Assembly (NCBI RefSeq): GCF_004364935.1
Contig: NZ_SOBT01000010.1
Span: 124,001-188,000 of the forward strand
Reading direction: 5' to 3'
DNA: 64,000 bases
Origin: Panacagrimonas perspica
Lineage (GTDB): Bacteria; Pseudomonadota; Gammaproteobacteria; Nevskiales; Nevskiaceae
Shown: positions 3,893 through 45,932 of the stretch, one piece after another
How positions within the stretch are numbered: position 1 is the stretch's first letter
Layout of the letters: every line of letters starts with the position of its first letter
The notes under the pieces: model-generated
Databases searched by the model: none
Told to the model about the DNA's origin: nothing
What the model saw: the letters and a program-made list of their open reading frames with translations, nothing else
Made by a program: the position numbers and the translations under genes

Positions 3893-3993
3893 GGATTCTT
3901 GCTCCGAGACTGTCGCAACAATGGGGATCCGGTGCGGCGCTTTCGCTGCCGCGACCTGTTGATCAGAAGATCGGTCCAACCGGCCGAAATGAC

Positions 3994-9627: not shown

Positions 9628-9631
9628 CGCC

Positions 9632-10447
9632 ATGCTCGTTCTCTTCGCGTTAGGAATCTGTATTGGACTGACGCTTGGGCTGACCGGTGCTGGAGGATCG
9701 ATCATCGCCGTTCCCATCCTGATGTTCGGGATGGGCTGGACGGTGGCCCAAGCAGGTCCTGTCGCGCTGTTGGCAGTCGCCAGTTCCGCGGCGGTCGGCG
9801 CAATGATCGGATTGAGGCAGCGCCAGGTCCGCTATCGGGCCGCAATCTTGGTCGCTTCGTGCGGAGTCGTGGTCAGTCCAGCAGGGCTGATGACCGCCAA
9901 ACACATACCGCCACACCTTCTGACAGTGGCGTTTGCGGCTCTGCTCGCGTGGGCGTCATTCACTGCCTTGAAGAAAAGCCGGGGATCCAGCCATGTCGGT
10001 GTCTCCGAGTCCGTCGGAGGCGACGGCGCATCGTGCCTGCGGGACGCTGCCACGGGGCGCTTCTGCTGGACCCGGAGCTGTGGTCAGGCCTTGGCGATCA
10101 CCGGTGTGGGAGCAGGATTTTTGTCCGGACTCTTCGGGGTAGGTGGCGGCTTCTTCATCGTCCCGGCATTGCGCCGAATCACCGACTTGTCGATGAACGC
10201 GGTGATCGCCACATCGATGTTGATCATCGCGCTGGTCTCCTCCGGAGCGGCGATATCGGCCGCGCTGGCCGGTCGCCTGCCCCTCGACGTGGGCCTGCCT
10301 TTCGCGTTTGGCGCCGTATGCGGCATGGCCGGAGGGAGGATGGTTTCGGGGAAGGTGGATGGCGTGCTGCTGGCCCGCGGGTTCTCGGCGCTGTGTGGTG
10401 TGATCGCCGTCCTGCTGGTGGCCCGCGAGATCTACGCGTGGCGATGA
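9632..10447 (+). CDS. TauE/SafE-family sulfite exporter
   Basis: A 271-residue membrane protein with two related halves, each opening with a glycine-rich helix: GLTLGLTGAGGSIIAVPIL near the N terminus and GFLSGLFGVGGGFFIVPAL at about 165. A hydrophilic loop separates them. This is the TauE/SafE layout, and such proteins often export sulfite or sulfoacetate. I use the ATG at 9632, 4 bp after the dioxygenase stop, because an earlier start (9584) would add a non-hydrophobic overlap. It is the last gene of the FisR-controlled operon and probably removes the sulfite that the dioxygenase makes. Confidence 0.88.
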   Translation: MLVLFALGICIGLTLGLTGAGGSIIAVPILMFGMGWTVAQAGPVALLAVASSAAVGAMIGLRQRQVRYRAAILVASCGVVVSPAGLMTAKHIPPHLLTVAFAALLAWASFTALKKSRGSSHVGVSESVGGDGASCLRDAATGRFCWTRSCGQALAITGVGAGFLSGLFGVGGGFFIVPALRRITDLSMNAVIATSMLIIALVSSGAAISAALAGRLPLDVGLPFAFGAVCGMAGGRMVSGKVDGVLLARGFSALCGVIAVLLVAREIYAWR

Positions 10448-16546: not shown

Positions 16547-17875
16547 ATGAAAACATTGAAGCAATGTTTCACCGCAGCTGCGACAGCCGCGATGCTCGTC
16601 ACTGGCCTCGGCCAACCGGCAGTCGCCGACGAGACCTGCAACTCGCCGTACATGTCTCGCCTGATCAAGGGCCAGGAGCAATTCCTGCACGTCTGGACCC
16701 TTGGAGTAAAAGGCATGGGCGACGGGTCGGACAAGCTCGTCACCGTCGATTCCGATCCCAAGAGCAAGACCTATGGAAAGGTCATCCACTCCTTGTCTGT
16801 CGGCGGGCGCGGCGAGGCGCATCACGTTGGATTTTCCGATGACCGGAAGTTCATCTGGGCGGGTCGTCTCGACGACAGCAAGATCTTCATCATCGACGTG
16901 GGCACGGATCCGGCGAAGCCGAAGGTCGTCAAGACCATCACGGATTTCGCAGCAAAGACGGGGTATGTTGGTCCACATACTTACTACGCCATGCCGGGAA
17001 GGATGCTGATCCAGGCCCTGTCCAACACGAAGGATCACAGCGGCGTCAGCGGTCTGGCGATGTATAGCAACGCAGGCGAGCTGATCGAGACGTACCCGAT
17101 GCCCAAGGATCAGGCCGATATCGGCGGAGGCGATGGCTACGCCTACGACATCGCAATCAACGCGCGCAAGAACGTGTTGTTGACCTCCAGCTTCACCGGC
17201 TGGACCAACTACATGATGGACTTCAGCAAGGTGCTGGCCGACCCGGCTGCAATGAAGAACTTCGGGAACACCATGGTGATCTGGGACCTGAAGGCGATGA
17301 AGCCGAAGAAGGTGCTGGACGTGCCCGGCGCGCCGCTCGAGATTCGGTGGAATCTAGCCGAAGGCCAGGACTGGGCAATCACGTCGACGGCGTTGACGTC
17401 GAAGCTGTGGCTGGTCAAAGAAGATGCGAAGGGCGAGTGGCAGGCCAAGGACGTCGGAAATATCGGCGACCCGTCCAAGGTTCCTTTCCCGGTCGACATC
17501 TCGATCAATGCGGATGGCAAGGGTCTGTGGGTCAACACCTTCTCTGACGGCACCGCTCGCTTCTATGACATGACCAACCCTGAGAAGCCGAAGCAGGTCT
17601 ACGAGAAGGTCATCGGCAAGCAGCTCAACATGGTCTCGCAGAGCTGGGACGGCAAGCGCGTGTACTTCACGTCCTCGATCTTCAGCCTATGGGACAAGAA
17701 GGGCGCCGACGACGAGCAGTTCCTGAAGGCCTACGACTGGGACGGCAAGGAACTCACGAAGAAGTTCGAACTGGACTTCTACGCACTCAAGCTTGGCCGC
17801 GCTCATCACATGAAGTTCAGTGCCAAGAGCGACGTCGCGTCCTCCGACGCGTCGCTGCTGACTTCGCGCCGATAA
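16547..17875 (+). CDS. mtoX: Methanethiol oxidase (SBP56/selenium-binding protein family), periplasmic
   Basis: A 442-residue protein with a Sec signal peptide (about residues 1-27, cleavage near AVA-DE) and a beta-propeller-type SBP56 domain. Conserved metal-site-like segments are GRGEAHHVGFS, YVGPHTYYAM and GRAHHMKFS. Bacterial MtoX oxidises methanethiol to formaldehyde, H2S and H2O2 and depends on copper. GAGGAG precedes the ATG. The stop overlaps the SCO1/SenC start (TAATG), and a MauG-like gene follows, the same mtoX-senC-mauG order described in methylotrophs that grow on dimethyl sulfide. Context and sequence agree strongly. Confidence 0.93.
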   Translation: MKTLKQCFTAAATAAMLVTGLGQPAVADETCNSPYMSRLIKGQEQFLHVWTLGVKGMGDGSDKLVTVDSDPKSKTYGKVIHSLSVGGRGEAHHVGFSDDRKFIWAGRLDDSKIFIIDVGTDPAKPKVVKTITDFAAKTGYVGPHTYYAMPGRMLIQALSNTKDHSGVSGLAMYSNAGELIETYPMPKDQADIGGGDGYAYDIAINARKNVLLTSSFTGWTNYMMDFSKVLADPAAMKNFGNTMVIWDLKAMKPKKVLDVPGAPLEIRWNLAEGQDWAITSTALTSKLWLVKEDAKGEWQAKDVGNIGDPSKVPFPVDISINADGKGLWVNTFSDGTARFYDMTNPEKPKQVYEKVIGKQLNMVSQSWDGKRVYFTSSIFSLWDKKGADDEQFLKAYDWDGKELTKKFELDFYALKLGRAHHMKFSAKSDVASSDASLLTSRR

Positions 17876-18553: not shown

Positions 18554-19696
18554 GTGGGTCTCCTCGGACGACTTCCGACGCAACCCTGGCGAGCGCTCGC
18601 TGCCGCTCTGGCTTTCGCGTTTGCCGCATGTCTTCCGGCTCATGGGGAAGCGGCAGAAGACGCCGCCGCGGAGTGGCTTGGCTTGCCCGCGCTGCCCTAT
18701 CCCGCCGCGTCGGAATCGCTTCGTGAACTCGGTCGGCGCCTGTTCTTCGAGCGCCGGCTCTCGTTCAACAATGCGATGTCCTGTGCGATCTGCCACGTGC
18801 CGGAAGAGGGTTTTGGCACGCACACGTCGCGTACAGCCGTCGGACTGGAGGGACACCTGCTGCCGCGCAATGCGCCGACCTTGCTTAACATCGCGTGGCG
18901 ACCCCGCTTGTTCCATGACGGCCGTGAAAGCTCACTCGCGGACCAAGCCTGGCTGCCCCTGCTGAATCCGCTCGAAATGGGCAACCCGTCCATCTCGCAT
19001 GTCCTGGAGATGCTGGGCGCTGACCCGGAGTATCAGAAAGCGTTTCAGGCGATCTTCGGCAGCAAGCAGCCCACGATGTCGCAAGTCGGTGAGGCTCTTC
19101 AGGCTTTCGAGCGATCGCTGGTGGCGGCAGGGTCCCGATTCGATCTGTGGAAATACCGCGGGCAAGCGTCGGCACTGACTCCCGTCGAGCGAACCGGCTT
19201 CGATCTCTTCCAGGGAAAGGCACTGTGCTCGTCGTGTCACGTCGTCGGCAAAGACGACGCTGTCTTCACTGACGATCGATACCACGTCACCGGTGCGTTT
19301 CTCCGAGAAGCGTCGCCTGCCGCCGCGGGATCCAGCTCTGACGAGATGGCGACGTCGCCCGTCGAAATCGAATTAGCGGCATTCGTACAGGCGGTGCGTT
19401 CCGATCTGGGTCGATATGAAATCACGATGGACCCTGCGGATCGCTACGCCTTTCGTACTGCCAGTCTGCGTAACGTCGAGCTGACGGCGCCTTACATGCA
19501 CGATGGCTCGCTGCTCACGTTGGAAGCGGTCGTTGAATACTACGATCGGGGCGGAGACGCCGTGCCGAACAAGAGTCCACTGATCCGACCGCTTCACCTG
19601 ACGGCCGAAGAGCGGGCGGCTTTAGTGGCTTTCCTGAAGACTTTGTCGTCGCCTGCAGCTGCTGCACTTCCCACCAGGCTCCGCGCGATTCCTTAG
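18554..19696 (+). CDS. MauG/dihaem cytochrome c peroxidase-like protein
   Basis: A 380-residue exported protein starting at GTG, with a signal peptide ending near residue 33. Two c-type haem sites are seen: CAICH at 77-81 and CSSCH at 225-229. Family segments FHDGRESSLADQAWLPLLNP and APYMHDGSLLTLEAVVEYYDRGG are present. The family includes H2O2-using peroxidases and MauG, which builds protein-derived cofactors. As the third gene of the mtoX operon it could mature MtoX or remove the H2O2 that MtoX forms. The sequence does not decide between these. Confidence 0.87.
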   Translation: MGLLGRLPTQPWRALAAALAFAFAACLPAHGEAAEDAAAEWLGLPALPYPAASESLRELGRRLFFERRLSFNNAMSCAICHVPEEGFGTHTSRTAVGLEGHLLPRNAPTLLNIAWRPRLFHDGRESSLADQAWLPLLNPLEMGNPSISHVLEMLGADPEYQKAFQAIFGSKQPTMSQVGEALQAFERSLVAAGSRFDLWKYRGQASALTPVERTGFDLFQGKALCSSCHVVGKDDAVFTDDRYHVTGAFLREASPAAAGSSSDEMATSPVEIELAAFVQAVRSDLGRYEITMDPADRYAFRTASLRNVELTAPYMHDGSLLTLEAVVEYYDRGGDAVPNKSPLIRPLHLTAEERAALVAFLKTLSSPAAAALPTRLRAIP

Positions 19697-30419: not shown

Positions 30420-32141
30420 CTACAGTAGTCCTGCGTTGTCGGTGACGCCGATCAGGCGCGGGCTTTGGGCACCGCGCGCGACGACTTCCTTCTGATCCTT
30501 GAGCCATCGACTGACGACTTCCCAGATTGGCTCGCCTTCAACATTGGCAGCAACCGGGGCCCAACCGGCGACCTTGTAGGTCTTGGTCGCGTCCAGCCGT
30601 TTTCCATTCAACCGGAGGTCCTGGATCCGATTGCCCACCTTCTCGAACGGTGCGATCGCGTAGGACAGGCCTCCGACCCGCACCATGTCTCCGCCCTGCT
30701 GCAGGTAGGGATCGGGGTTGAACAGGTTGTCCGCGACATCCTCGAGAACGGCCTTGACCCGCTCCCCCGTCATGTCGGTCAGGGTCGTCTGCGGATAGCT
30801 GATGGCCGTCTGGTTCATCACGTCTTCCAGGGTGATGGCCATCCCGGCGGTCAGGCTCGTGCCCCATCGGAACCCCGGCGAAAACGCAATCTCTGCGTTC
30901 TTCTCGGTGAGGAGCGCATCGAGAACGACCTGATCGAACGTTCCGTTGAAGTTACCCCGACGGTAGAGCGTCTCGCCGGCCACCGCGAGCCGCTGCCCAA
31001 GCTTCTCGGCGAAAGGAGCTCGAACCCGCGCGATGAGTGCCGCCATCTCGGGGTCGGGCGTGATGGCATCGGCGAACACGGGCAGCAGTCGATACTTCCA
31101 GCCAGTCGGCCGACCGTTCGCAACGGAGAAATCGAGAACGCCAAGAAACTTGCCGTTGCTTCCCGCGTTGGTGACCAGGGTCACGCCGCCCGCGTTCTTG
31201 ACCTCGATCGGCCGGGCGACCGCGTCGTGCGTGTGGCCGCCCAGGATCGCATCGATACCGGAGACACGGCTGGCGAGCTTGAGGTCGACGTCCATCCCGT
31301 TATGCGATAGCAACACGACCACGACGGCGCCCTGCTTGCGCGCTTCGGTCACCACCTTCTGCAGGTTTTCTTCCTGTATCCCGAACGCCCAGTTCGGGGT
31401 GAAGTGGGCAGGGTTTGCGATCGGCGTATAAGGGAACGCTTGCCCGATGACAGCAGTCGGGACGCCGTTGATCTGCCGAATAACGTAGGGAGGGAAAACG
31501 GGATCGCCGAAATCCTGCGTCCGCACGTTGTGCGCGACGAAGTCGAGCGCGTTATTGAAGTCGGAGGAGATGATCTTCTCCACCCGGTCGCTCCCCAGCG
31601 TGAACTCCCAGTGACCCGTCATGACATCGACGCCCATCAGACGACAGGCATCGACCATGTCCTGGCCCTGGGTCCACATGGCGGTGGCGGAACCCTGCCA
31701 AGTATCGCCACCGTCGAGGAGCAAGGCGCCCGGCCGCGTCGCCTTCATTCGTTTGACGAGTGACGAGAGGTGCGCAAACCCACCGACGCGTCCGAACCTC
31801 GCCGATGCTTCCTCGAAGTCGAGGCAGCTCAGGGCGTAGGCTTCCGGAGAACCTTTCTTGATGCCGTAGCTGCGCAGTAGCGCGTCCCCGACGAGATGCG
31901 GCGGCCGATTCCTCGCCTCACCCACTCCCAGGTTGACCGAAGGTTCCCGGAACAAGATCGGGTTGAGCTGCGCATGGCAGTCCGTGAAGTGGAGCAGGTG
32001 CACTTGGCCAAACCGGGGAACGTCGTACAGACCGTCCCACGAAGCATCGGTCCCGGCGCGGCTGTTCGTGATCGGGAGACCGGAGACGACCGCCGCCGCC
32101 ATGACCTGCAAGAACTCACGTCTCGAAAAAGTGCCGCTCAT
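30420..32141 (-). CDS. soxB: SoxB thiosulfohydrolase
   Basis: A 573-residue periplasmic 5'-nucleotidase-family enzyme with a TAT signal (FSRREFLQVMAAAVVSG). The dimanganese site motifs are HFTDCHAQL, LLLDGGDTWQGS, MTGHWEFTLG, LLSHNGMDVD and ILGGHTHDAV. It hydrolyses the sulfonate group as sulfate from the cysteine-bound S-sulfonate on SoxYZ. The start at 32141 (MSGTF) has GGAAG upstream; an ATG five codons earlier has no SD. It is the last sox gene, followed directly by ctaD. Confidence 0.95.
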   Translation of the reverse strand: MSGTFSRREFLQVMAAAVVSGLPITNSRAGTDASWDGLYDVPRFGQVHLLHFTDCHAQLNPILFREPSVNLGVGEARNRPPHLVGDALLRSYGIKKGSPEAYALSCLDFEEASARFGRVGGFAHLSSLVKRMKATRPGALLLDGGDTWQGSATAMWTQGQDMVDACRLMGVDVMTGHWEFTLGSDRVEKIISSDFNNALDFVAHNVRTQDFGDPVFPPYVIRQINGVPTAVIGQAFPYTPIANPAHFTPNWAFGIQEENLQKVVTEARKQGAVVVVLLSHNGMDVDLKLASRVSGIDAILGGHTHDAVARPIEVKNAGGVTLVTNAGSNGKFLGVLDFSVANGRPTGWKYRLLPVFADAITPDPEMAALIARVRAPFAEKLGQRLAVAGETLYRRGNFNGTFDQVVLDALLTEKNAEIAFSPGFRWGTSLTAGMAITLEDVMNQTAISYPQTTLTDMTGERVKAVLEDVADNLFNPDPYLQQGGDMVRVGGLSYAIAPFEKVGNRIQDLRLNGKRLDATKTYKVAGWAPVAANVEGEPIWEVVSRWLKDQKEVVARGAQSPRLIGVTDNAGLL

Positions 32142-32173
32142 TGATCTTCCATTCATGCCGGCATCGCAGCCCG

Positions 32174-32782
32174 TTACTTGTTGACCGGTGACGCCGGGTC
32201 GAACAGGAATGCCATGACGTCGCGGATCTGCTCTTCCGTCAGGATCTTCGCGTCGCCGAAACGCGGCATGTGGCTGCAGGCGCTATAGGCGTGCGAATTC
32301 CAGATCCGTGTCCACGTGTACTTGAGCATCGCTTCCGACTGACCGCGGATCTTCCCGTAGCCGGCCAGCGAGGGACCCAGGGTTCCGAACGAAATCTCTT
32401 CTGGAGCCAGCTGGTGGCACGCGTAGCAGTTCCCGCCATTCGGCGTGGCGGGATCGTCCGAGGACTGCATGCCGGTTCCGGTCTGGGCGATCTTCTGTCC
32501 TTTCTCCCATTGCCCGAGCAGCTTTCCGTCTGCTGGAAGGACGACACCGTCCATCGCGGCCTTCTGAATTTTTGTGGCCACGTCGGCGGCTACTTCCATT
32601 CCTACAGGGCCACTGCAGGCCTGCTGCATCTCCGATTGCTGGAGTCGATCCAGCCCCGCTTGGCCCTTCGCCCGGTACGAAGCCGTCAGTGACTCGTTGT
32701 CACCGGCCATCGTGGTAGGGGAAAGCGTTGCTAACACGAGCACGAGCAACGAGAGGGTGGCCACAAGGCAGCGCGCGCTCAT
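32174..32782 (-). CDS. soxX: SoxX cytochrome c subunit
   Basis: A 202-residue exported monohaem cytochrome with a signal peptide of about 26 residues, the haem site CYACH at about 120 and the distal Met in CSHMPRFG at about 175. It forms the SoxAX complex that joins thiosulfate to the SoxY cysteine. Its ATG overlaps the soxA stop (ATGA). At about 200 residues it is longer than minimal SoxX; the extra stretch lies N-terminal to the haem domain. Confidence 0.93.
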   Translation of the reverse strand: MSARCLVATLSLLVLVLATLSPTTMAGDNESLTASYRAKGQAGLDRLQQSEMQQACSGPVGMEVAADVATKIQKAAMDGVVLPADGKLLGQWEKGQKIAQTGTGMQSSDDPATPNGGNCYACHQLAPEEISFGTLGPSLAGYGKIRGQSEAMLKYTWTRIWNSHAYSACSHMPRFGDAKILTEEQIRDVMAFLFDPASPVNK

Positions 32783-33603
32783 CGCTTGATCCCCGGTGCG
32801 TCCATGATGCCGCCGTTGGCAGTCGCGCCGAGGTAGGTGAGCAGGCTCACGGCGGCAGGTGACCCGAAGATGAGTTCAGGCAAGCGCTGCTGCCGCGCGC
32901 AATCCACCATCCGCCACTGCATCGTCCGCAGGGCGCCTTGCGAGACGCGATACGCCGGCCAGGATCGATACGCGTTGGCCGCACCTTCCTGGGTGGTGAG
33001 ATTGGGGAGCACTGTGAGTCGAATTCGTTTGCTCGACTGCGAATGGCAACCGGCACACGAAAAGTCGTACGGACCCGCGCGGTAATTGAATAGCCGCTTG
33101 CCTTCGGCGAACGCTGCTTGTTCCTTGGCATGCTTCTGCGGCACCGAGATCACCTTGCCGCGGGATTGGCCGGCGATCCATGCAGTGAGCGCCTCCAGAT
33201 CGGTGGCCGTCTGGCCCTGAACCGAAAACGGGCGCGCAGTGACCGCACTTTCCGACAGCCCTTGAATGTCGTTCATGCACCAAGCGAGCCGCGTCTCCAG
33301 ATCCATGACTCGCCCCGCATCCTTGAAGTAGCGTGGCAACGAGGCGTACGCACCTGCCACGACTCCGGCCCCGAGCCCGAGGTCGCAAGCGGACAGCGGC
33401 TTGTTCTTCGGCCCTCTCGCGGCGCTCCATAACTCTTCGCCCTGCATCTCGACCAGCTCGGCAGGATTGCCCTCTCCCAGCATTTCCCGGTACTGGGAAA
33501 ACATCTCGTCGTCGCCGGCGGCGAATGCGACGGATGCGCAGCAGGAGACGCAGAACAGGGCCGCACGAAACCAGCTTCGGGACGATACTGCGGAAGCGCT
33601 CAC
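32779..33603 (-). CDS. soxA: SoxA L-cysteine S-thiosulfotransferase, single-haem type
   Basis: A 274-residue exported protein starting at GTG within the soxZ stop (GTGA). Only one CXXCH is present (FSCAGCHSQ, about 180). The first haem site of dihaem SoxA is reduced to a lone Cys in SACDLGLG. The active-site cysteine that becomes a persulfide haem ligand is in MVDCARQQRLP. LPRYFKDAGRVMDLETRLAWCM is typical SoxA. It works with SoxX to attach thiosulfate to SoxYZ. The single-haem form is known in some Sox systems. Confidence 0.93.
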   Translation of the reverse strand: MSASAVSSRSWFRAALFCVSCCASVAFAAGDDEMFSQYREMLGEGNPAELVEMQGEELWSAARGPKNKPLSACDLGLGAGVVAGAYASLPRYFKDAGRVMDLETRLAWCMNDIQGLSESAVTARPFSVQGQTATDLEALTAWIAGQSRGKVISVPQKHAKEQAAFAEGKRLFNYRAGPYDFSCAGCHSQSSKRIRLTVLPNLTTQEGAANAYRSWPAYRVSQGALRTMQWRMVDCARQQRLPELIFGSPAAVSLLTYLGATANGGIMDAPGIKR

Positions 33604-33911
33604 GACAGGGCGACCTGGTCGGTTCGCGAGTCACCCTGGTTGTCCTTCCAGGTGACGCTCACGGAGTCACCTGGGGTTCCACCCACGAACTGGAACTGGA
33701 TGAACGGATTCTGGGAGACCGCAGGACCCCAGACCGCGGAGAGGACCACCTTGTCGTTGTGCTTGGCAACCACCTCGTTGATGTAATGGCCGGGAATGGT
33801 CTTTCCCTCCGGATCCTTGCGGAACCCGGTCTCCATCGGATGAGCAATGAGGACTTTGACTTCGGTGCGGCCGTCCTTGATGGCCGCGCGGATCTTCATC
33901 GGACTACCCAT
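33600..33911 (-). CDS. soxZ: SoxZ carrier subunit
   Basis: A 103-residue immunoglobulin-like protein (MKIRAAIKDGRTEVKVLIAHPMETG and FIQFQFVGGTPGD) without a signal peptide; it is exported with SoxY through TAT. The start is placed at 33911 (MGSPMKIR). It forms the SoxYZ heterodimer that carries sulfur intermediates. It begins 15 bp after the soxY stop, and its own stop overlaps soxA. Confidence 0.94.
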   Translation of the reverse strand: MGSPMKIRAAIKDGRTEVKVLIAHPMETGFRKDPEGKTIPGHYINEVVAKHNDKVVLSAVWGPAVSQNPFIQFQFVGGTPGDSVSVTWKDNQGDSRTDQVALS

Positions 33912-33925
33912 GACTTTCTCCTGTC

Positions 33926-34423
33926 TCAACCACCGCAGCCGCCGAGTGTCACCTTGGTCTCGCGAGTCGCGCTGAAGAGCTTCCCATCCGCCTTCACGAC
34001 TGCGATCACGTTGGACGTCTGGGCGACCTTGACCCGCGCGCTGATCATGGCGTCGGTCTGATCTGGAATGGCGAACGCAGCCGCGAACGGGTTCGGGTTC
34101 TTCTCGATGATTAGGTAGATGTCCGTTGTGGACGGAAGCGAACTCTTCACTGTGATCGGAACCACCGAGCCGTTTTCGGCGATGTCGGGTGTCGTCAGCA
34201 CGATCTGATCACTCGGTGTCGGTTTATCGCCCAAGGCCTTCAGCACGTCGTCGACCGTGCGCTCCTTGAACATGCCTTCGAGCGCCTGGGCCCAGGCGCG
34301 GATCGGAGCCAGAGAGAGGAGGAGCAGGCCGCCCATCAGCCGGGCCCCCGACCAGAGGACCTGCCTCCTCGAAAGCACCTCGCGCCGCGAGTGTCCGCCG
34401 TTATTCATATCGCTCACCGTCAT
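33926..34423 (-). CDS. soxY: SoxY sulfur-carrier subunit
   Basis: A 165-residue TAT substrate (SRRQVLWSGARL signal) ending in the swinging arm VTLGGCGG, whose cysteine carries the sulfur intermediates. The mature domain has the SoxY beta-sandwich pattern (DIAENGSVVPITVKSSLP). The ATG at 34423 overlaps the soxD stop (ATGA). The complete C-terminal motif indicates a functional carrier. Confidence 0.95.
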   Translation of the reverse strand: MTVSDMNNGGHSRREVLSRRQVLWSGARLMGGLLLLSLAPIRAWAQALEGMFKERTVDDVLKALGDKPTPSDQIVLTTPDIAENGSVVPITVKSSLPSTTDIYLIIEKNPNPFAAAFAIPDQTDAMISARVKVAQTSNVIAVVKADGKLFSATRETKVTLGGCGG

Positions 34424-35472
34424 TGCGCTGCTCCTCCTGCAATCCATTCCGTGATGGCTTTCATGGTTTCGTCGGGCAACTGGGCGAACGGAGGCATGGG
34501 AACCACTCCCCATACACCGCTGCTGCCGCCACGAATCTTCGACGCGAGATAGGCCGTGGCATCCTTGCGATCTGCGTACTTCGCTGCCACGTCCTTGAAC
34601 GACGGGCCCAGGAGTTTCGCGTCGATAGCGTGGCACCCGAGGCAGCCGTTGCTCGACAACATCGGCGTGACGTCTGGACCGGTGCGCTTCGTGCCTAGAC
34701 CCGTTGCCACGGGAGCAGTGGCGGGGCTCGCCGTCTCGGCTCCCATCGCCAGCTCGACGCCACGTACAGCGCCAAACGAACGATTCTGCTTCGCGAGGTC
34801 GCCATGCGAACCCCGCGCATGGTCAGGCAGCGCCGACGTGATCACCACGTCGCCGTGCAAGCAGTCCTGCATGCAAGGCTTGGCACGCGTATCGGCCTTG
34901 CCGCCCACCTTCCAGAGTCCGTGCTCCTGCGTCATCCCGTTGCGGTTCGGCAGCCGGGCCTGCACGTTCGCCATGGTCTTGTCTGACAGCACGAAGTCGG
35001 CGGGGACGATATCCGCGAGATGGAGCAGATACGCGAGCGCGGCGTAGACCTCGTTTGGCGAAAGCGACTTCGGCCGGTCCCAGGGCATCGCGCGGTTGAT
35101 GTAGTCCCACAACGTCGAGATGGAGGACACCTTGGTGAACGTCGTGCGATAGCTGCCGCCTGCCTTCAGTGAGGCCACCCGGCCGGTGCGGATGTCGTCC
35201 GCCGTGGTGTTGCCGATCAGCGGCGTGAAGACGTGGTTCGCATCGCCGAAGTCGCCGTGGCAGCTGGCGCAACGAGCGCTCCACAGCGCTTCGCCTTCCG
35301 ATACCGAGCCTTGCCCGGCTGGAAGCCCGACAAAATCGGGACGCACGTCGATGTCCCAGGCGCGGATCTCTGCGTCCGTGGCCGATCGACCGACGCCGGC
35401 ATAGTCGGCTCGCACCACGCTGCTGGTGGTTGCCAGCAATCCGAGCAGACACAAGAGCGCAATGTGTTTCAT
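34420..35472 (-). CDS. soxD: SoxD dihaem cytochrome c
   Basis: A 350-residue exported cytochrome with a signal peptide of about 22 residues, the haem sites CASCH (68-72) and CLGCH (about 277) and the Met ligand region PMPPFAQLPDETMKAI near the C terminus. It accepts electrons in the SoxCD sulfane dehydrogenase. The start (35472) overlaps the soxC stop (ATGA). SoxCD lets the pathway oxidise thiosulfate fully to sulfate without sulfur globules. Confidence 0.94.
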   Translation of the reverse strand: MKHIALLCLLGLLATTSSVVRADYAGVGRSATDAEIRAWDIDVRPDFVGLPAGQGSVSEGEALWSARCASCHGDFGDANHVFTPLIGNTTADDIRTGRVASLKAGGSYRTTFTKVSSISTLWDYINRAMPWDRPKSLSPNEVYAALAYLLHLADIVPADFVLSDKTMANVQARLPNRNGMTQEHGLWKVGGKADTRAKPCMQDCLHGDVVITSALPDHARGSHGDLAKQNRSFGAVRGVELAMGAETASPATAPVATGLGTKRTGPDVTPMLSSNGCLGCHAIDAKLLGPSFKDVAAKYADRKDATAYLASKIRGGSSGVWGVVPMPPFAQLPDETMKAITEWIAGGAAQ

Positions 35473-36815
35473 AGCTGGACGTTCGAGACCTCGCCGGACC
35501 GGTCGACCCGCCAGGTCTGGATGGCATTGTTGTGATAGATCGAACGCGTCCCACGGACCTCGCGCAGCATTCGATAGCTGGGTTGCACGAACCCGGTGTC
35601 GTCCATGGCGCGGCTTTGGAGCAGGCAGGGCGAGCCGTCCCACGTCCAGTCGCAGTTGAATCGCGTCAGCGCCTTCGGAAGCTGCGGGCTCTCGAGCCTC
35701 GCTGCCTTCCAGTTCCGGCCGCCGTCAAACGAAACATCGACCCGCTTAATCGTGCCCCGGCCTGACCAGGCCAGGCCGGTCACGTTGCAGAAGCCCTGCC
35801 CCACCAGTTTCTGGCCGCCCGACGGCGTCGTGATCACCGACTTTGCTTCCTGGATCGACGTGTACTGCCGCAGCCGTCCGTCCGGCATCAGGTCGACGTA
35901 GTGGGCCACCTCGTCCTTGGCTCCGTAAGGCTGATCGCCCACTTCGATTCGTCGCAGCCATTTCACCCACGACACGCCCTGCACACCGGGAACGACCAGA
36001 CGAAGCGGATAGCCGTTCTCGGGACGAAGCATTTCACCGTTCATCCCGTAGGCGACGAAGGCGTCGTCCAATGCGCGTTCCATGGGAATCGTGCGCGTCA
36101 TGCTCGACCCGTCCGCGCCTTCCGCCAGCACGAACTTCGCCCTGGATCGATCGATCTTGGCGTCGTCCAGCAAAACCGACAGCGGAACGCCGGTGAACTC
36201 CGAGCAGGAGATCATGCCGTGGGTGTACTGGACGGTCGGCACCGCCACGTTTGCCCACTCCATGGCGGAGTTGGCACCGCATTCGATGAAGTGGATGCGC
36301 GAGACCGAGGGCAGACGCATCAGGTCGTCCATGGTGTACACGCGGGGGCGGCCGACGAGTCCGTTGATCATCAGGCGGTGACGCGATGGATCGACATCCA
36401 CCCATCCCTGGTGATGTCGCTCGAAATGCAGGCCCGAGGGAGTGATGATTCCGAACAGCCCCTGAAGCGGAGCGAATGAGACGGACGCCTGCGCGACACT
36501 GGTCAGTCCCGGTGACTGCCTCCGCGCCAGTGACGTCTCGTAGATCGACGGATCGCCATATGGCTTGAAGACGACCGGCTTGCCGAGCAAAGTCGACCAA
36601 GGCGGCAGATTCAGGATCTCTGCGTCGCCGTCCGATGGATTGCCCGTCGCGCCCATCGCGGAGCCGGCCATCGCGCCGAGCGCAGCAGAGAAGGCACCGC
36701 GGATGAGACGCCGCCGATCCGGATCGATCCCGCCTTTCTGGATCGACACAATCAGCTCAGGGCCAAGAAACCCTTCCGGAGCCTTCTGGACGATCGTGCG
36801 TGCGCTGGAGTCCAT
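35469..36815 (-). CDS. soxC: SoxC molybdoprotein subunit of sulfane dehydrogenase
   Basis: A 448-residue sulfite-oxidase-family protein with a TAT-like signal (DRRRLIRGAFSAALGAMAG) after a long N-terminal region. The molybdopterin-binding domain has the Mo-ligand Cys in HFIECGANSAMEW, and the C-terminal Mo-co dimer domain follows (GTIKRVDVSFDGGRNWKAA). It oxidises the SoxY-bound sulfane sulfur. It is the first gene of the minus-strand sox operon; the promoter must lie in 36816-37150. Confidence 0.94.
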   Translation of the reverse strand: MDSSARTIVQKAPEGFLGPELIVSIQKGGIDPDRRRLIRGAFSAALGAMAGSAMGATGNPSDGDAEILNLPPWSTLLGKPVVFKPYGDPSIYETSLARRQSPGLTSVAQASVSFAPLQGLFGIITPSGLHFERHHQGWVDVDPSRHRLMINGLVGRPRVYTMDDLMRLPSVSRIHFIECGANSAMEWANVAVPTVQYTHGMISCSEFTGVPLSVLLDDAKIDRSRAKFVLAEGADGSSMTRTIPMERALDDAFVAYGMNGEMLRPENGYPLRLVVPGVQGVSWVKWLRRIEVGDQPYGAKDEVAHYVDLMPDGRLRQYTSIQEAKSVITTPSGGQKLVGQGFCNVTGLAWSGRGTIKRVDVSFDGGRNWKAARLESPQLPKALTRFNCDWTWDGSPCLLQSRAMDDTGFVQPSYRMLREVRGTRSIYHNNAIQTWRVDRSGEVSNVQL

Positions 36816-39973: not shown

Positions 39974-40335
39974 CCATTCTGGTACCCCGTGCTTCTTGGC
40001 GACAGATGCTACTGGAGCGCTATCCGCTCCTCGGAGAATTCGGACCATTTGCTTATCGGTAAATCGGACCTTCTTCATCGACTTCTCGCTTGTTAGCGGG
40101 AGCCAGAATCTTAAGCATCAAATGGTCCGAGAATCGGCAGGCAGGTCACCCGACGCGGCACTCTCTGCAGTGGTCGTGGGCTGCACAGCCTCGACAGTCA
40201 CGCAGAAGCTGGTCTCAGACCTGTTATCGGACCGGATGAAGACTGGTAAGCCGCCCGTACGACTCCTGCGAGCCGCTCGCCACCCCACCCGCTACGAGTT
40301 GGTGCTGCGTCGCGCGTAGGCTGGCGGAAGCCAAC
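39974..40335. other. Probable left end region of the Tn7-like element, with TCGGACC repeats
   Basis: TCGGACCATTTG (40040-40051) is repeated in inverted form as CAAATGGTCCGA (40119-40130). Shorter TCGGACC copies start at 40064 and 40227. A TGTTA that could begin an element end occurs at 40222, with another at 40091. No gene is credible here. Clustered short repeats are typical of TnsB-binding ends, but I could not fix the exact boundary. Confidence 0.5.
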
Positions 40336-41670
40336 TCACTCACTATCGCCTGTTCCTTCTGAAGGCCGGACACGCATCATCTCGCCGAATAATTCCTTTG
40401 CCCCCCATTCGCTCATACTGGTCCGCCCCATAAAACGACGCAGAAAGGCGGTCCGAGTCAATCGGACGCCTTCTATTTCCATCCTTTTCAGAACTCGCAA
40501 CGCGCTTCTTCGTTGCGACAAAATCTTTCGCCATCTTCGTTTAGTCTTTAGGCGGCGGATCCGCCCTGCGAGCTTCTTCACTTTTTTATTGCAGTAGTGA
40601 TAAAGGCTCGATTGCGTGGCCTTAAGCCGGATTGCAAGTTCAGCAATCGAGTCGACCGATGGCTTCGAGAGAGACAACTGCTCGTCTACTGCTGTGGCGA
40701 TTCGCTCTCTGAGACCTTGATCTACTGATCGCGGCCCAAATCTGGGCACTGCCCATACTCCGCGTGCGATATCTAGTGGCATCTGTGCTGCAGCCAAGAA
40801 CGGGTCTCTCAGGGTGTCGAGCGGGCTAACCCCCAGCAAAGCACACACCCTCATCCAGGTCGCCACCCTCGGGCGCCTACGCCCCTTCCACCAATCGCCC
40901 AGCGTATCGGGAGAAATGCGCAGTTGCGTTGCAAGGCTCTCGAGTGTGAGCTTCTGCCCTGCTAGAACTTCCCGAACGAACACTCTCACTTCGTGGCCGT
41001 GAACCGATCGCTGCAGATCAGCGCTTGCCTCAATCAGCTTCGAGGCTTCGGCAGCCAGCCAAATCTGATGAGACGTCGTGGGGTCCGACGGCAGAACCGG
41101 CAGATTTTGGATATCTCCAAGCCAGCATCCGCACTTGCTGCACAGATCAAGCACTCCAGACGTAGGAACAAGCGCTTGCGGCGACCTGCACTTAGGGCAT
41201 CGAGAAGAGAGCTTTGTCTTATCCACAACACAAACGTTCAAATCAGCAACCTGCCAGGCGAGCAGGTCGTGGGATCTGATGTCCGCGCGACGCATTCTTA
41301 GGAAGCACGCCGCGCAGAAATGTCGATCTCTTTTAACCACCAAACCACCTTGTGTGGAGAAGACCTTGATAGCCCATCCGAAGTTCGATGCACCAAGGTC
41401 GTCTCGCTTGGTCACAAGGGAAAGCAACGCTTCTAGCCGGGACTGCATCAATCCGTAGCCATTCAGGCATCCGACGTCACGTGCTCTGAGGTTGGAAAGA
41501 GGCACCGAGTATGTGCTCTCAAGAAGATTGAGAATTCGCAAGGGCGACTTACCGTGGTCCTTTGCGAACGCACAGAGAATGCTTGTAGTGCATTCCGCCT
41601 CTGGCGTGCCGAGCGCGAAGGGTCTAATCGGATATGTCGATACGGCTAATGACGGTAACGAGCCGTTCAT
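40336..41670 (-). CDS. TniQ/TnsD-like target-selection protein
   Basis: A 444-residue protein. The N-terminal TniQ domain has zinc-finger pairs HFCAACF (C119, C122), CPKC (158/161) and CSKCGC (177/180). A central XRE-like HTH follows (LTLESLATQLRISPDTLGDWWKGRRRP), then a TnsD-like C-terminal DNA-binding region (IAELAIRLKATQSSLYHYC) and a basic tail. TnsD/TniQ proteins recognise the attachment site and recruit TnsC. The start overlaps the TnsC-like stop (ATGA). The extended C terminus and the nearby tRNA-Ile gene suggest homing to that tRNA. Confidence 0.83.
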   Translation of the reverse strand: MNGSLPSLAVSTYPIRPFALGTPEAECTTSILCAFAKDHGKSPLRILNLLESTYSVPLSNLRARDVGCLNGYGLMQSRLEALLSLVTKRDDLGASNFGWAIKVFSTQGGLVVKRDRHFCAACFLRMRRADIRSHDLLAWQVADLNVCVVDKTKLSSRCPKCRSPQALVPTSGVLDLCSKCGCWLGDIQNLPVLPSDPTTSHQIWLAAEASKLIEASADLQRSVHGHEVRVFVREVLAGQKLTLESLATQLRISPDTLGDWWKGRRRPRVATWMRVCALLGVSPLDTLRDPFLAAAQMPLDIARGVWAVPRFGPRSVDQGLRERIATAVDEQLSLSKPSVDSIAELAIRLKATQSSLYHYCNKKVKKLAGRIRRLKTKRRWRKILSQRRSALRVLKRMEIEGVRLTRTAFLRRFMGRTSMSEWGAKELFGEMMRVRPSEGTGDSE

Positions 41671-42770
41671 TCGATTCCCACCGGATCGCTTGCCGGGCCT
41701 CTCTCTCCGGGCCGCCGACCGTTGGGCTTCCCTCCCCCATCCGGCTTACTTTCTTCCTTTTTTTCTTGATCATCCTGCCGAGCCTCATCGTTCGTCCTGA
41801 GTTCAGCCGCCTCGAGGTCCTCACGCAGACGCTTAAGCTGCTGCTGGCTCGGAAGGTGTTTCTTGACGTCGCTCCATGCGATCTTGTCTTTTCCCATTTT
41901 CCTTACGTCTTGCAGGGCGGCGACCAGCGCTTTTTTTATATATCCGGGGACAAAGAGCGTTCGCATCTCGATCTGTTGCAACACCTTCTTGTCAGCTAGA
42001 AACTTCTCCTCAGCTGCATCTCCGAGAAGCTCTTGAAACCCTTTGAGCATTGCAACAGCACTAGCCTTTCCCTGAGAGGTCGACGAATCGATTGCCTTAA
42101 CATCGATCAGAACTGCTGCTTGATCGATACTAGAATTGGTTACCTCCGGATTTTCATTGCTTCCCAGCATGTCTCTGATGACCGGGCTTCCGCTCAGAAC
42201 GACAACTTGGGGCCCGCCATTGCGCGCATTAACGATTTTGTTCAGTAATGCGAATGCGTGGTGGTACTCCTTCGGACGTAACGTCCGCAACATGAAGTGA
42301 GCGTCTGTCACGATCAGCACGCGCGTCTCACGCTTCCGAAGCGCCGACGAGAAATCGTCTCGATAGTCGTCTAGAGACCGGAAGTTCGCGTTGCCATTGA
42401 ATTCGGTCCGACCACTCGCTGACTCTGTTGCACGCTTTCGCTGCCCAAGTGCAGGCTCACCTAAGCTCTTGAGACCTTCCACGAAGAACGTTCTCCATCC
42501 GAATCGACCTTCCGTCGGCGGTTTAGCGTCCACTTCGCAGACCATGTACGGGTTGTATCGCTCGGCGCCCTTTTGTAGTTCTGACTTGGCGAATCGAGCG
42601 ATCCTATTCACGCCCAAGCCCCCGACCCCCGTGAGCAAGATTACCGTCCCAGAGATAGCGAGCTCGCACCTAGCTCGAAGCTGAGCGGCGGTTTCGATGA
42701 AGTCGGGATAGTCAACGGTTCGCTCTTCCAACCGGCGGAGGGCCAGGTCGATGTTCTCAGTCGAGCTCAT
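41667..42770 (-). CDS. TnsC/TniB-like AAA+ protein with degenerate Walker motifs
   Basis: A 367-residue protein in the position and size of TnsC/TniB, with an AAA-like core. Where Walker A should read GxxGxGKT it has GVGGLGVN (48-55), lacking the lysine and threonine. Walker B reads VLIVTDAH (D156 then A), lacking the glutamate. The C terminus is a long acidic/basic disordered tail. TnsC normally bridges TniQ and the transposase using ATP; this copy may bind but not hydrolyse nucleotide, or may act without it. ATGA overlaps couple it to both neighbours. Confidence 0.78.
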   Translation of the reverse strand: MSSTENIDLALRRLEERTVDYPDFIETAAQLRARCELAISGTVILLTGVGGLGVNRIARFAKSELQKGAERYNPYMVCEVDAKPPTEGRFGWRTFFVEGLKSLGEPALGQRKRATESASGRTEFNGNANFRSLDDYRDDFSSALRKRETRVLIVTDAHFMLRTLRPKEYHHAFALLNKIVNARNGGPQVVVLSGSPVIRDMLGSNENPEVTNSSIDQAAVLIDVKAIDSSTSQGKASAVAMLKGFQELLGDAAEEKFLADKKVLQQIEMRTLFVPGYIKKALVAALQDVRKMGKDKIAWSDVKKHLPSQQQLKRLREDLEAAELRTNDEARQDDQEKKEESKPDGGGKPNGRRPGERGPASDPVGIE

Positions 42771-45319
42771 TGCTCATCCACCCGGCGCGCGGGACTCGCA
42801 GGAATGCTCTCGACATCGAACGAACTCCATGATGAGAGAGGCGTCGGAGGAGATGGCGTAGAAGGTCCCGGAGTTGGACAGTTCGCCAAGGACGTATGAA
42901 AATCTGCGAGAGGGTCTTTAGAAATCTCAGCAATCTTTTCGAAGATCAGCGCGTGTTCTCGCGCTCTGTCTTTGTTGGATTTTGCATACATCGTATGTGC
43001 CGCTCTGAGTTCAAGACTTACGGCTGCGAGCTCGATTCCTCGAAGGCTGGAGAATCGTTTGTGCGCCCTGTGCTTCAACTCCGTCCACGATCTTCCAAGC
43101 CTCGCGATAACGTAGCTGACGTCGAATGGATCGTACTTAACCGCATGTTTAGCGCCGTAAAATGCGGGATCCACTGCGCCGAGCGGAACATAGGGTTCGC
43201 CTAAGCACCTGAAACCCGTCTGCCTATCGAATTCAAGTCGATTGGTAGGGCAGTACGGCAACAGGATGTAGCGTGCCTGGTCCAGATCTGGATGGAGCCG
43301 GAAGCTCCGATCACCATGGATACGCTCCGACGTTGCTCGAGCTTCGGCCGGAGTCTGACCCGCCAACGCCGATCTTCTGATCCGGGTGTTGGCGAAGTCG
43401 TACAGGAACGCCTCGATGACCATCAGCAGCGACGCGATCGTCCTGTCAGCGAAATTTGCAGGATCCCACCCTTTTGGCCATTCCTTCGGGTCCTGGAACT
43501 TGACGTAGTTTCCGGCCAGATAGACGAACAAGCCTCGCATCAGCCAGCTAAAGCTTCCCTCGACGACTTGACCATCTCGAGGGTTCGAGTAGCGACGCGC
43601 CACTTTGTCCGACGTCATTCGAGCGAGCGATTGCTCGGTATTCACACTGTCGTGCGAACTCTCCCCATCCATCTTCATCCGATCAGTCAGCTTTCCGTGC
43701 CGCCGGTAGCAGTCCCAAAACAGGCTGTCGATCGTCCTATTCGACGGCTTGTCAAACGACACTGTCGACGCAAGAGTTTCGTGAGTACCTTCATCCCGCA
43801 TTAGCGAGAGGATTGGGCTCAGTCCAGGCAAAGGCACCCCGGTAAAGGAGGTTATGCATCTGATCGGGATCGGTGTGTGGTCAATAATCCCGATGCTAAA
43901 AGCTCTTGTCGCGATCCTGCTGACCGTCCCGATCGTAAATGCTACGGCTGGAGATTTTTGATACGCGGCGCCGCTACCTTCGTTTTTCTCGATCGCATCC
44001 AGCTGCGCTTTCCGCTCGTTCCATCGCTTGCCATACGTCACATGGCTTGGAGACATCGTGTTTTCCGCCTCGCAGGCGGCGATGAACTTCCCGTAGGTCC
44101 AAGGCGTTTTGGATGGTCGGTTCTCTGCTCTTGCATCAATGTGCTCGCAGAGTATCGCCTCGGTTTTTTCCGGCAGATGGCTGCCATGAAACCCTCGCAG
44201 CCCGAAGTCGGGGCACAAACCCACCAAGCCTGCTCCGTATTTGGAGACAGCTTCGCGATACAGCCTTAAGTAGGCCCTCTCGAGGTCCGGGAGTGACGAA
44301 GCCAGTTTTTCGTCCGCGAGTGCTTCACGGATCAGCCCATAACGACGATACATCTCGAGTTCGCTCGCCTTGGACATCGCCGAGAAATCAAACTGCTCTT
44401 TTCCAGTTCGATCCTCGGTGAGCGCTGGGGCTTCGACCGGGGCCGCGCGCGCCGCTTCCCAAAGATCTCTGCTCGCGAAGATGCGGGCCACCCCGTAGGG
44501 CTGCAGTTGCTCAGTGAGGAGGTCGACGTAAACGTGCTCATTCACTATGCAGCCGATGACGTCATCTGCGGTCCAGTTCTCCGCCTGTAGCACGACGTCG
44601 CAGTAGCGCGTTACGCCCACGCGCTGAACATGAATGATGAACCGACGCGCGCCGTCGGCCATCTTCCATCGAGTTCGAAATCCTTTGCCGAAAAAGAGAA
44701 GGTTGGACGTGAGGACGGCCGATACGTCTCTCGTCGTTGCGAGGAGGACACCTATTCCCAGCGGCTCACAGCTCGCCAATAGCGGACGATCCAAATACCG
44801 ACCTGACTCGCCGTCCGGCGCGAAGTGCGGATTCCCCTGAGTGGCCTCGTCGCTTGCTTCTTCATCGGTCGCCATTTCGATGAATGCGGCGCTGCCATCG
44901 AGGAATTGGACAAACGCGTCAGGGGTTACCTTTGTGACGATCCGGCGCCCTTCACTGTTCAGGTAGTCGACGCTGATCCGAACTGGCTGTGCCTTCCATG
45001 TGAGCAACTCACGGTTGAACTCGCATTCCAGGTGAAGGGCACCCTCGTTGGAGTCGCTTTCCGCCTCCTGAGTCCGTCCGGTTTGTTCAGATGCAGTACG
45101 CACGACCCCATTGAATTTGCTGCGCCTTGCGCGCCGCGCCGGAGGACTAGCCAACAGTCGCTCAATGAACTGCCTCCCCTCCTCGGTAGGGGAGCGCGCG
45201 ATGGCCTTTGCCCTGCCAAGCAATGACAGAGGTCTCGCATGCGTGATGGGCGCTACCGCTGGCTGAATCCCGGTCGGTTCTGAGTTCGGTTCTGATGCCA
45301 TCCGTTGGGTCACTATCAA
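42767..45319 (-). CDS. TnsB-like DDE transposase with an N-terminal TnsA-like domain
   Basis: An 850-residue protein. Residues about 90-260 resemble TnsA endonuclease (HLECEFNRELLTW, VTPDAFVQFLDG, FIEMATDEE), although the lysine usually following the acidic strand is not evident. Residues about 310-460 are helical DNA-binding modules, and 470-600 an rve/DDE core with candidate triad D480 (GIIDHTP), D551 (KMDGESS) and E587 (VVEGSF). The rest is Mu-transposase-C-like beta plus a proline-rich tail. It is the first gene of the tnsAB-tnsC-tniQ operon. A fused TnsAB would cut both strands (cut-and-paste) if the TnsA domain is active, which is doubtful. Confidence 0.8.
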   Translation of the reverse strand: MIVTQRMASEPNSEPTGIQPAVAPITHARPLSLLGRAKAIARSPTEEGRQFIERLLASPPARRARRSKFNGVVRTASEQTGRTQEAESDSNEGALHLECEFNRELLTWKAQPVRISVDYLNSEGRRIVTKVTPDAFVQFLDGSAAFIEMATDEEASDEATQGNPHFAPDGESGRYLDRPLLASCEPLGIGVLLATTRDVSAVLTSNLLFFGKGFRTRWKMADGARRFIIHVQRVGVTRYCDVVLQAENWTADDVIGCIVNEHVYVDLLTEQLQPYGVARIFASRDLWEAARAAPVEAPALTEDRTGKEQFDFSAMSKASELEMYRRYGLIREALADEKLASSLPDLERAYLRLYREAVSKYGAGLVGLCPDFGLRGFHGSHLPEKTEAILCEHIDARAENRPSKTPWTYGKFIAACEAENTMSPSHVTYGKRWNERKAQLDAIEKNEGSGAAYQKSPAVAFTIGTVSRIATRAFSIGIIDHTPIPIRCITSFTGVPLPGLSPILSLMRDEGTHETLASTVSFDKPSNRTIDSLFWDCYRRHGKLTDRMKMDGESSHDSVNTEQSLARMTSDKVARRYSNPRDGQVVEGSFSWLMRGLFVYLAGNYVKFQDPKEWPKGWDPANFADRTIASLLMVIEAFLYDFANTRIRRSALAGQTPAEARATSERIHGDRSFRLHPDLDQARYILLPYCPTNRLEFDRQTGFRCLGEPYVPLGAVDPAFYGAKHAVKYDPFDVSYVIARLGRSWTELKHRAHKRFSSLRGIELAAVSLELRAAHTMYAKSNKDRAREHALIFEKIAEISKDPLADFHTSLANCPTPGPSTPSPPTPLSSWSSFDVESIPASPARRVDEQ

Positions 45320-45855
45320 AAGGCAATAGGAGGCCCGGCCTTGACGGCGTCACTTTTTCGCTTTACGGTGCGACTCACGACTGAAGCACCAGCTGAAAGC
45401 ACGATCCGTGGTCAGGCAACTGACTGCGGTTTTTGCGTTTTGGGTCTCGCTACTTGATCACGGGATTTCCTCTAGTCGTCGAGCGTTCGAAGGAGCCGAT
45501 TAACTTCGCAACTTAGAACACGCCGAGTGGAAAATCAAAAACCACAGTAAAAACATGTGGTTATTGTACAAAAGTACAATTCAGCCCTGATGGCTGCCGT
45601 TAAGAAAACAGCCTTAAAAATTGCTGTGCGCGCCCAATTCCGTACTTGCTTTCGGAGCCTACAGGCCGGCCAAGCACTCCCGACAGCGGGACTCGAGCGG
45701 CGCGGTGCTGGCGCTACTGACGCGTCGAATTAACGTCCGGCCCCGCGCCGTATTCCGAGGGCGGGTCGTAACCAATTCGACCCTCGTAATCAATTGCACC
45801 TAACAGCGGCGACTAATTGGTTACTCGCGCACCGATGCCCGAACGGCGAATGTGA
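45320..45855. other. Probable right end region and promoter of the Tn7-like element
   Basis: A 536-bp gap between tnsAB and tRNA-Ile2. It holds an AT-rich block (45520-45620) with CCACA-N9-TGTGG and the palindrome TTGTACAAAAGTACAA (45564-45579), probably an operator/promoter of the minus-strand operon. Nearer the tRNA are AATTGGTTAC-type repeats: GTAACCAATT (45768), GTAATCAATT (45786) and inverted AATTGGTTAC (45814). The exact end is not determined. Confidence 0.5.
45564..45579. promoter_or_regulatory. Palindrome TTGTACAAAAGTACAA upstream of the transposition operon
   Basis: Perfect 6-bp arms (TTGTAC/GTACAA) surround AAAA in the AT-rich block 245 bp before the tnsAB start. A second inverted repeat CCACA-N9-TGTGG (45542-45560) adjoins it. 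It is likely a repressor or host-factor site. Confidence 0.5.
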
Positions 45856-45932
45856 TGGTGGGCCCTCCGGGACTTGAACCCGGAACCAACGAATTATGAG
45901 TTCGCTGCTCTAACCGGTTGAGCTAAGAGCCC
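45856..45932 (-). tRNA. tRNA-Ile2 (anticodon CAU, lysidine-modified type)
   Basis: A 77-nt cloverleaf on the minus strand: the acceptor stem starts GGGCTCT and pairs with AGGGCCC, discriminator A, encoded CCA (45858-45856). The D arm is AGCTCAACCGGTTAGAGC, the anticodon loop CTCATAA and the T loop TTCAAGT. An elongator CAU anticodon in the ACTCATAAT context is that of tRNA-Ile2, which TilS converts to read AUA, rather than tRNA-Met. The Tn7-like module lies immediately 3' of it. Confidence 0.9.

Follow-up and report, generated by a model that had tools for sequence, protein, structure and literature searches.

Tn7 encodes separate TnsA and TnsB proteins, TnsE and an ATP-using TnsC, and its target is glmS. 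The element analyzed here, which lies mostly within a stretch of 64,000 nucleotides from Panacagrimonas perspica (contig NZ_SOBT01000010.1, positions 124,001 to 188,000 of the forward strand; hereafter the window), is unlike Tn7 in these features, for TnsC as judged by its motifs, and it shares with Tn7 a 5-bp target-site duplication (TSD) and guidance by TnsD to a set distance beyond the 3' end of a conserved gene. It is very probably a 56.7-kb, tRNA-homing Tn7-like transposon with a TnsA-TnsB fusion (TnsAB) and no CRISPR system, inserted 3' of a tRNA gene with a CAU anticodon and carrying ~50 kb of cargo in which sulfur and one-carbon (C1) catabolic genes are abundant. According to Benler 2021 (PMC8649781), Tn7-like elements insert downstream of tRNA genes, bear cargo and reach 140 kb, and PMC11406308 derives the type I-B2 and I-D CRISPR-associated transposons (CASTs) from elements with a TnsAB fusion in which TnsD targets different tRNA genes. 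From these statements and those in PMC10293859, the kind of element and its target class are already known, and the subfamily is known for tRNA-homing TnsD. The surprise is a Tn7-like system with an AAA+ regulator that looks like a pseudo-ATPase.

Among the described systems, PmcCAST (Tn7744, type I-B2; structure described in PMC12585508) resembles the element in its TnsA-TnsB fusion, TnsC and tRNA-targeting TnsD, as outlined in PMC11406308. In contrast to PmcCAST, no Cascade gene and no second TniQ were found here among 50 scanned cargo open reading frames (ORFs), some of them doubtful, which were searched outside the three transposition genes with Pfam (E 1e-5 for 30, 1e-3 for 20) and, for 10, with NCBIfam; Cas, resolvase and integrase matches were also absent from these 50, the remaining ORFs lying outside the scan, and no CRISPR-like direct repeats (at least 20 nt, within 120 bp) are present. 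The PmcCAST TnsC has the motifs GASGVGKT and VDEA, both of which are missing from the window protein, and the target here is of tRNA-Ile2 type, whereas it is tRNA-Val for PmcCAST in the target plasmid of PMC10293859. CyCAST (Tn7745, type I-D) likewise has a fused TnsAB and a TnsD that homes to a site downstream of a tRNA gene, but is stated in the same paper to insert ~30-33 nt beyond tRNA-Leu, compared with 18-19 bp before the TSD here, and has an RNA-guided pathway, for which the 50 cargo ORFs gave no Cas match. Few complete pathways are reported as Tn7-like cargo in PMC8649781, the main text of which has 0 occurrences of the word "sulfur"; compared with its metabolic-cargo elements, the window element has Sox genes plus a methanethiol oxidase. 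Among the matches listed from the open-access literature, neither this element nor a TnsC lacking the Walker lysine was recognised, and those on Tn7-like elements included no tRNA-Ile; Tn7-like elements in Nevskiales gave no match.

The length of the element, 56,737 bp, is set by an empty site in a congener (genome G001), terminal inverted repeats (TIRs) and the 5-bp duplication, all of which can be read directly from the DNA. So can the genes that it carries and the separate insertion of another member of the lineage at this tRNA. At position 45831 the element closes with TGCGCGAGTAACCAATTAGT in reverse complement (window coordinates equal those of our joined stretch of this genome minus 19001), and in 83 kb the terminal repeat, allowing up to 5 mismatches, occurs only at the two element ends (Table 1). 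Of 2000 paired dinucleotide shuffles applied to the junction zones, not one reached 18/20 identities with a matching 5-mer, the best reaching 14. With at most 2 mismatches allowed, the repeat core is found twice at the left end and three times at the right. The congener is collinear on either side: blastn to the P. perspica contig breaks at joined-stretch coordinate 8081 and restarts at 64845. Its gene order is dapF, DUF484, xerC, a small lipoprotein gene, tRNA(CAU) and a DUF1302 gene (non-tRNA names read from translations), while in P. perspica dapF lies at C3:110186-111016 and the tRNA at C3:169856. When the flanks are joined through a single CCGAT, they align to the congener with a score of 201, against a mean of 166 and a maximum of 178 in 200 control joins, a coarse control in which the last 40 bp on the left were swapped for element sequence.

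A preliminary description of this locus had proposed a minimal module without cargo, bounded on the left at 39974. Neither point is upheld: the element holds positions 1-45831 of the window including the sulfur genes, and the full left repeat lies 10.9 kb outside the window. A larger element with cargo extending into the sulfur island, which that description had itself named as speaking against it, is thus what was found. Its proposed comparison of empty tRNA sites in relatives was carried out and defined the ends and the CCGAT duplication, the congener lacking the whole 56.7 kb. The stated absence of a resolvase, CRISPR array or Cas gene holds for the 50 scanned ORFs and the direct-repeat search.

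The right end of the element is 24 bp from the 3' end of the tRNA(CAU) gene. A pattern search for this tRNA in the P. perspica genome returned 11 places (18 in the reversed control), and ARAGORN, run on 5 of them, recognised two CAU tRNAs and called both Met. By the tRNA identity rule, the target (GGGCTCT...AGGGCCCACCA) resembles tRNA-Ile2 and the second CAU tRNA is Met-like; of the tRNA-Ile(CAU) proposed earlier, the CAU gene stands and the Ile2 identity is probable only, ARAGORN giving tRNA-Met.

Homing to this tRNA is well supported by a second element behind the same tRNA, at near-equal spacing and with its own repeats and duplication. It was found in another genus of the family (genome G003), where the three transposition genes lie at C1:82420-87307 and a CAU tRNA is found 11 kb away. 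On the right, TGTGCAGTAAACGATAAGG in reverse complement reaches to 98348, and GACTT, 18 bp and the tRNA 3' end at 98372 come next; on the left, TGTGCAGTAAACGATAATG starts at 76274 with GACTT just before it. These ends were located using the spacing in the window element as a guide. The G003 element is 22,075 bp long, its TIRs agree at 18/19 positions (within 35 kb, the closest other copies carry 5 and 6 mismatches), a clear core copy is seen only at each tip, and its cargo is for metal efflux (CzcCBA-like, MerR and a cation diffusion facilitator, read from translations). Both elements with defined ends (2/2) are inserted at a fixed distance 3' of the tRNA, 19 and 18 bp before the TSD. Different repeats, a different duplication and a TnsAB identity of 35% indicate that the G003 element is, as judged from its sequence, an independent insertion. 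The tRNA-gene targeting proposed in the preliminary description, which also called for a search for the same genes at this tRNA elsewhere, is strengthened by this second case.

The moving machinery of the 57-kb element is a set of three genes, whose frames are all open over 5 kb and joined by 4-base overlaps (ATGA). The six 1-kb windows at 40-46 kb have a G+C content of 0.544-0.585, compared with 0.607-0.644 in three windows on either side. Profiles of three members each (the window protein plus its relatives in G003 and G061) have the TnsABCD chains of PmcCAST as their best PDB relatives. The TnsAB profile matches 9bw1 at E 1.8e-190 over residues 15-833, and TnsAB alone matches chain M of this structure at E 4.9e-50, with no Pfam or NCBIfam match at E 1. 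The DDE triad is kept, D480, D551 and E587 falling in the columns that hold it in TnsAB relatives. The catalytic residues of TnsA are E, D and ExK; this set is not complete in the window copy, where Ala replaces Lys (FIEMAT). The lysine is present in G003 and G014; L034 and L050 lack it as well. The TniQ profile matches TnsD of PDB 8v32 (also 9bw1) at E 2.5e-51 over positions 5-419, nearly end to end, and the protein matches the PADLOC model TniQ_IB (4.8e-10), Pfam TniQ (E 0.00037, below its cutoff) and, internally, the helix-turn-helix (HTH) domain HTH_3 (E 4.8e-7).

These results agree with most of what had been described for the three genes, namely the ATGA coupling, the lower G+C, the Tn7-like TnsAB/TnsC/TnsD identity, the internal XRE-like HTH and the extended TnsD-like C terminus. 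Their placement "directly downstream" of the tRNA is correct as to the 3' side and loose in wording, the TnsAB start codon being 536 bp away. Among the earlier observations, those on the three genes, G+C, tRNA and HTH are thus retained, and those on absent cargo and the left boundary are not; of the interpretation, the Tn7-like genes without Cas or resolvase, the tRNA targeting and the distinct lineage, a fair claim given the degenerate TnsC, are borne out, and the words "minimal, without cargo" are wrong.

TnsC gives only a weak AAA match in Pfam/NCBIfam at E 1, and its three-member profile matches TnsC of PDB 8fcu/9bw1 at E 2e-51. A profile of ten other TnsCs, this clade excluded, finds the window protein at E 2e-20 (Z 1000) and the G003 protein at E 2e-43 (the profile gives no match to the TniQ control), with the alignment spanning the Walker A and B region in both. 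The ten are from G061, two Caballeronia frames (L050), five cyanobacterial plasmid loci, G348 and G644; for the plasmid comparisons, 7 of the 44 matching records were used, and L052 is outside the set because it gave TnsAB frames without TnsC. By blastp, the window TnsC is 27% identical to that of G003 (E 4e-45) and 24% to that of G061 (E 3e-13). The Walker A lysine is found in 10/10 comparison TnsCs and is V in the P. perspica protein and those of G003 and G066; the Walker B aspartate, also 10/10, is T, S and S in the same order; and the arginine pair, present in 9/10 and 10/10, is QA, FP and FP. The window TnsC keeps 9 of the 36 columns conserved in the comparison set and G003 keeps 18, the P-loop glycines are kept in all three proteins, and the Walker B glutamate is kept in G003 and G066. 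No second TnsC was detected at E 0.001 in these three genomes. Between G003 and G066, tnsC differs by 29 synonymous and 17 non-synonymous changes over 333 codons, and the C-terminal part of TnsAB by 41 and 9 over 515 codons, with ratios of non-synonymous to synonymous rates (dN/dS) of 0.19 and 0.07, respectively. The value of 0.19 indicates that the altered TnsC was kept by selection at least in G003/G066. Judged by its motifs, the TnsC of this clade appears to be a pseudo-ATPase.

In the proposed mechanism, TnsD would bind the 3' part of the tRNA gene via its middle and C-terminal regions, and TnsC would be recruited there and bridge to TnsAB on end sites of the form AGTAANC(A/G)AT(A/T)AG. 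TnsAB would join the ends at a constant distance of 18-19 bp plus 5 bp from the tRNA, which stays intact, while TnsC may act as a non-hydrolysing, probably nucleotide-independent scaffold. The TnsA nuclease may be weakened or lost in the window copy, so that the copy, if it still moves at all, would do so replicatively. We tentatively propose that these elements form a lineage with a pseudo-ATPase TnsC maintained by selection, in which TnsD-guided homing to tRNA-Ile2 and transposase recruitment may proceed without ATP binding or hydrolysis by TnsC.

Two other readings of the locus as a whole were rejected. A cargo-free element of ~6 kb (39974-45932) next to an unrelated sulfur island would agree with the lowest G+C and low G+C at third codon positions (GC3) of the three genes and with the lack of cargo between them and the tRNA. 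It is very improbable, however, given outer ends with a matching TSD, a full repeat found only at these two ends 56.7 kb apart, a 12-bp core (up to 2 mismatches) without a match near 40 kb (the nearest is at 42132, inside tnsC), and a congener empty site that lacks the entire 56.7 kb. An integrative island that is mobilised by a tyrosine recombinase and carries the tns genes along would account for 57 kb of DNA adjoining a tRNA, but the same 50 cargo ORFs, at the thresholds given above, include no integrase match, the duplication is of 5 bp, lies outside the tRNA and is not a copy of its 3' end, and TIRs are present; we consider this reading very improbable too.

The unusual proteins allow two further explanations. 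The three genes could be a decaying, immobile remnant, in which the TnsA and TnsC losses reflect decay and not a new mode of action. The TnsA lysine, gone in the window copy and present in G003 (it is missing in two distant TnsABs as well), fits this, as do the 9 retained TnsC columns against 18 in G003, but the overlapping frames are open, the ends and TSD are intact, the TnsC losses are common to G003, whose type is under purifying selection, and a genome from a different family has a copy of this type that is 96% identical; decay therefore seems rather unlikely. A TnsC that still uses ATP through unusual residues, having lost the motifs and not nucleotide binding, is suggested by the P-loop glycines and by the Walker B glutamate of G003 and G066; as each of the two lineages has changes in both Walker motifs at once, we regard this as somewhat unlikelier still. 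Several observations weigh against the reading preferred here, a cargo-bearing, tRNA-homing element with a pseudo-ATPase TnsC. The window TnsC alone matches no PDB chain at E 1 and no plasmid record, its arginine-pair column is uncertain since the ten-member profile does not align this stretch, and a single-sequence AlphaFold model (mean predicted local distance difference test score 39) was not used. The degenerate TnsC is known from three sequences but two independent lineages, the G003 and G066 copies being 96% identical, and selection was measured for this pair only. The lysine loss in TnsA could mean that the window copy is dead. Tn7 ends begin with TGT, and the element ends begin with TGCGC (TGTGC in G003). 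The empty-site control swaps 40 bp left of the junction, so that its last few bases are not tested by themselves. Finally, the sulfur cluster of the congener sits away from the tRNA, and the cargo is not unique to the element.

Within the cargo, methanethiol oxidase, an NtaA/DmoA-family monooxygenase, SoxB, SoxA, SoxX and, twice, SoxC score above curated cutoffs, and SoxY and SoxZ are recognised by Pfam. Other products include TauE, a sigma-54 activator, an aldehyde dehydrogenase, a MauG-type protein, a rhodanese and GFA. The two SoxC-type sulfite dehydrogenases (L032:15090-16418 and window 35469-36815) each adjoin a cytochrome c ORF. GC3 is mostly 0.61-0.85 in the cargo (two ORFs at 0.90-0.91), 0.58-0.64 in the three transposition genes and 0.84-0.95 in 7/8 ORFs upstream of the element, for ORFs picked by a score favouring high GC3. 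MtoX occurs in 2/85 genomes of the order, P. perspica and the congener (E 1e-50). Contig C51 of the latter matches 13/36 tested cargo proteins at 49-83% identity, two SoxC queries hitting one gene, and bears a compact sulfur cluster homologous to the cargo (G001:C51:12926-30037; L059, L060). The first 40 kb of this 56-kb contig have no end repeat better than 6 mismatches, and TnsAB was not found in this genome (90% complete). As to a possible transfer of the sulfur cluster onto the element within the genus, sequences matching the initial 12 kb of the contig are scattered over the P. perspica genome.

Relatives of TnsAB are sparse, with 4 other genomes among 146 relatives (E 1e-10), 4 among 85 in the order (E 1e-30), 1 among 369 in the class (E 1e-30) and 1 among 398 in the phylum (E 1e-20). 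A contig search with the TnsAB pair found a single locus, the Algiphilus bin contig L033, which is identical to G014:C73 from a genome in the family of P. perspica, and searches of viral contigs and phages with single transposition proteins gave no match. DNA of the G003 region recurs in G014 (99.4% over 6718 bp) and G066 (96.2% over 2550 bp), the latter genome belonging to another family and carrying G003-type genes at 96% identity. In G066 (L008:9481-12672) the TnsAB frame begins at about residue 329, without the TnsA half, and abuts cation-efflux genes; either a natural loss of TnsA or the assembly could explain this. G061 (L010:4186-10136) has a distant TnsAB/TnsC/TnsD set with intact ATPase motifs beside a tRNA-Glu(CTC) on the TnsD side, and no ends could be defined there (best repeat 11/18, against 12-13 in the ten best controls). 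A 29-kb stretch of a Caballeronia sp. M1242 plasmid (L050), possibly two Tn7-like elements together, has two TnsC-like frames, in both of which the Walker motifs are canonical, together with a pair of TnsAB frames, one of them with altered TnsA catalytic residues.

Table 1. Features of the P. perspica element and its target site (window coordinates unless prefixed)
Feature	Position	Strand	Basis or remark
Right-hand 45.8 kb of element	1-45831		Empty site in congener G001, TIRs, TSD
Left end of element	G000:C3:113095 (L032:8096)		10.9 kb before window start
Left TIR TGCGCTAGTAAGCAATTAGT	L032:8096-8115		18/20 identical to right copy
Right TIR TGCGCGAGTAACCAATTAGT	45812-45831	minus	18/20 identical to left copy
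Two further repeat-core copies GTAACCAATTCG, GTAATCAATTGC	45768-45797	plus	Inverted relative to end; 1 and 2 mismatches; candidate TnsB sites
TSD CCGAT	45832-45836; other copy L032:8091-8095		Beside both repeats
Spacer between TSD and tRNA 3' end	45837-45855		19 bp (18 bp in G003)
tRNA, CAU anticodon, probably tRNA-Ile2; target gene, intact	45856-45932	minus	ARAGORN (labels tRNA-Met)
TnsA-TnsB fusion transposase (TnsAB)	42767-45319	minus	850 aa, TTG start, one open frame
TnsC, AAA+ family, degenerate Walker A (GVGGLGVN) and Walker B (VTDAH)	41667-42770	minus	367 aa
TnsD-type TniQ, internal Cro/C1-type HTH	40336-41670	minus	444 aa
SfnB-like/acyl-CoA-dehydrogenase-fold oxidoreductase	819-2054	minus	SfnB 270 bits, under cutoff 431; Acyl-CoA_dh domains
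NtaA/DmoA-family flavin mononucleotide (FMN) monooxygenase, family-level assignment only	2135-3979	minus	TIGR03860 516.7 bits, cutoff 279.7
TauE/SafE sulfite exporter family	9584-10447	plus	Pfam
Methanethiol oxidase MtoX	16547-17875	plus	NF052453 760 bits, cutoff 650
MauG-type di-haem protein	18554-19696	plus	CCP_MauG 5.2e-48; MbnH and MauG models under cutoff
SoxB	30420-32156	minus	TIGR04486 831 bits, cutoff 550
soxX, soxA, soxZ, soxY	32174-34636	minus	Pfam/NCBIfam
Two-domain cytochrome c ORF (SoxD-like by position only) and SoxC	34420-36815	minus	Pfam/NCBIfam

This locus shows a tRNA-homing Tn7-like element bearing a large gene set for the oxidation of methylated sulfur compounds and thiosulfate as one 57-kb unit. 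Natural TnsCs stripped of their ATPase motifs provide a direct way to ask what role ATP plays in target selection by Tn7 and the CASTs. A pseudo-ATPase lineage, if true, would separate the scaffold role of TnsC from the ATP-driven control of TnsC.

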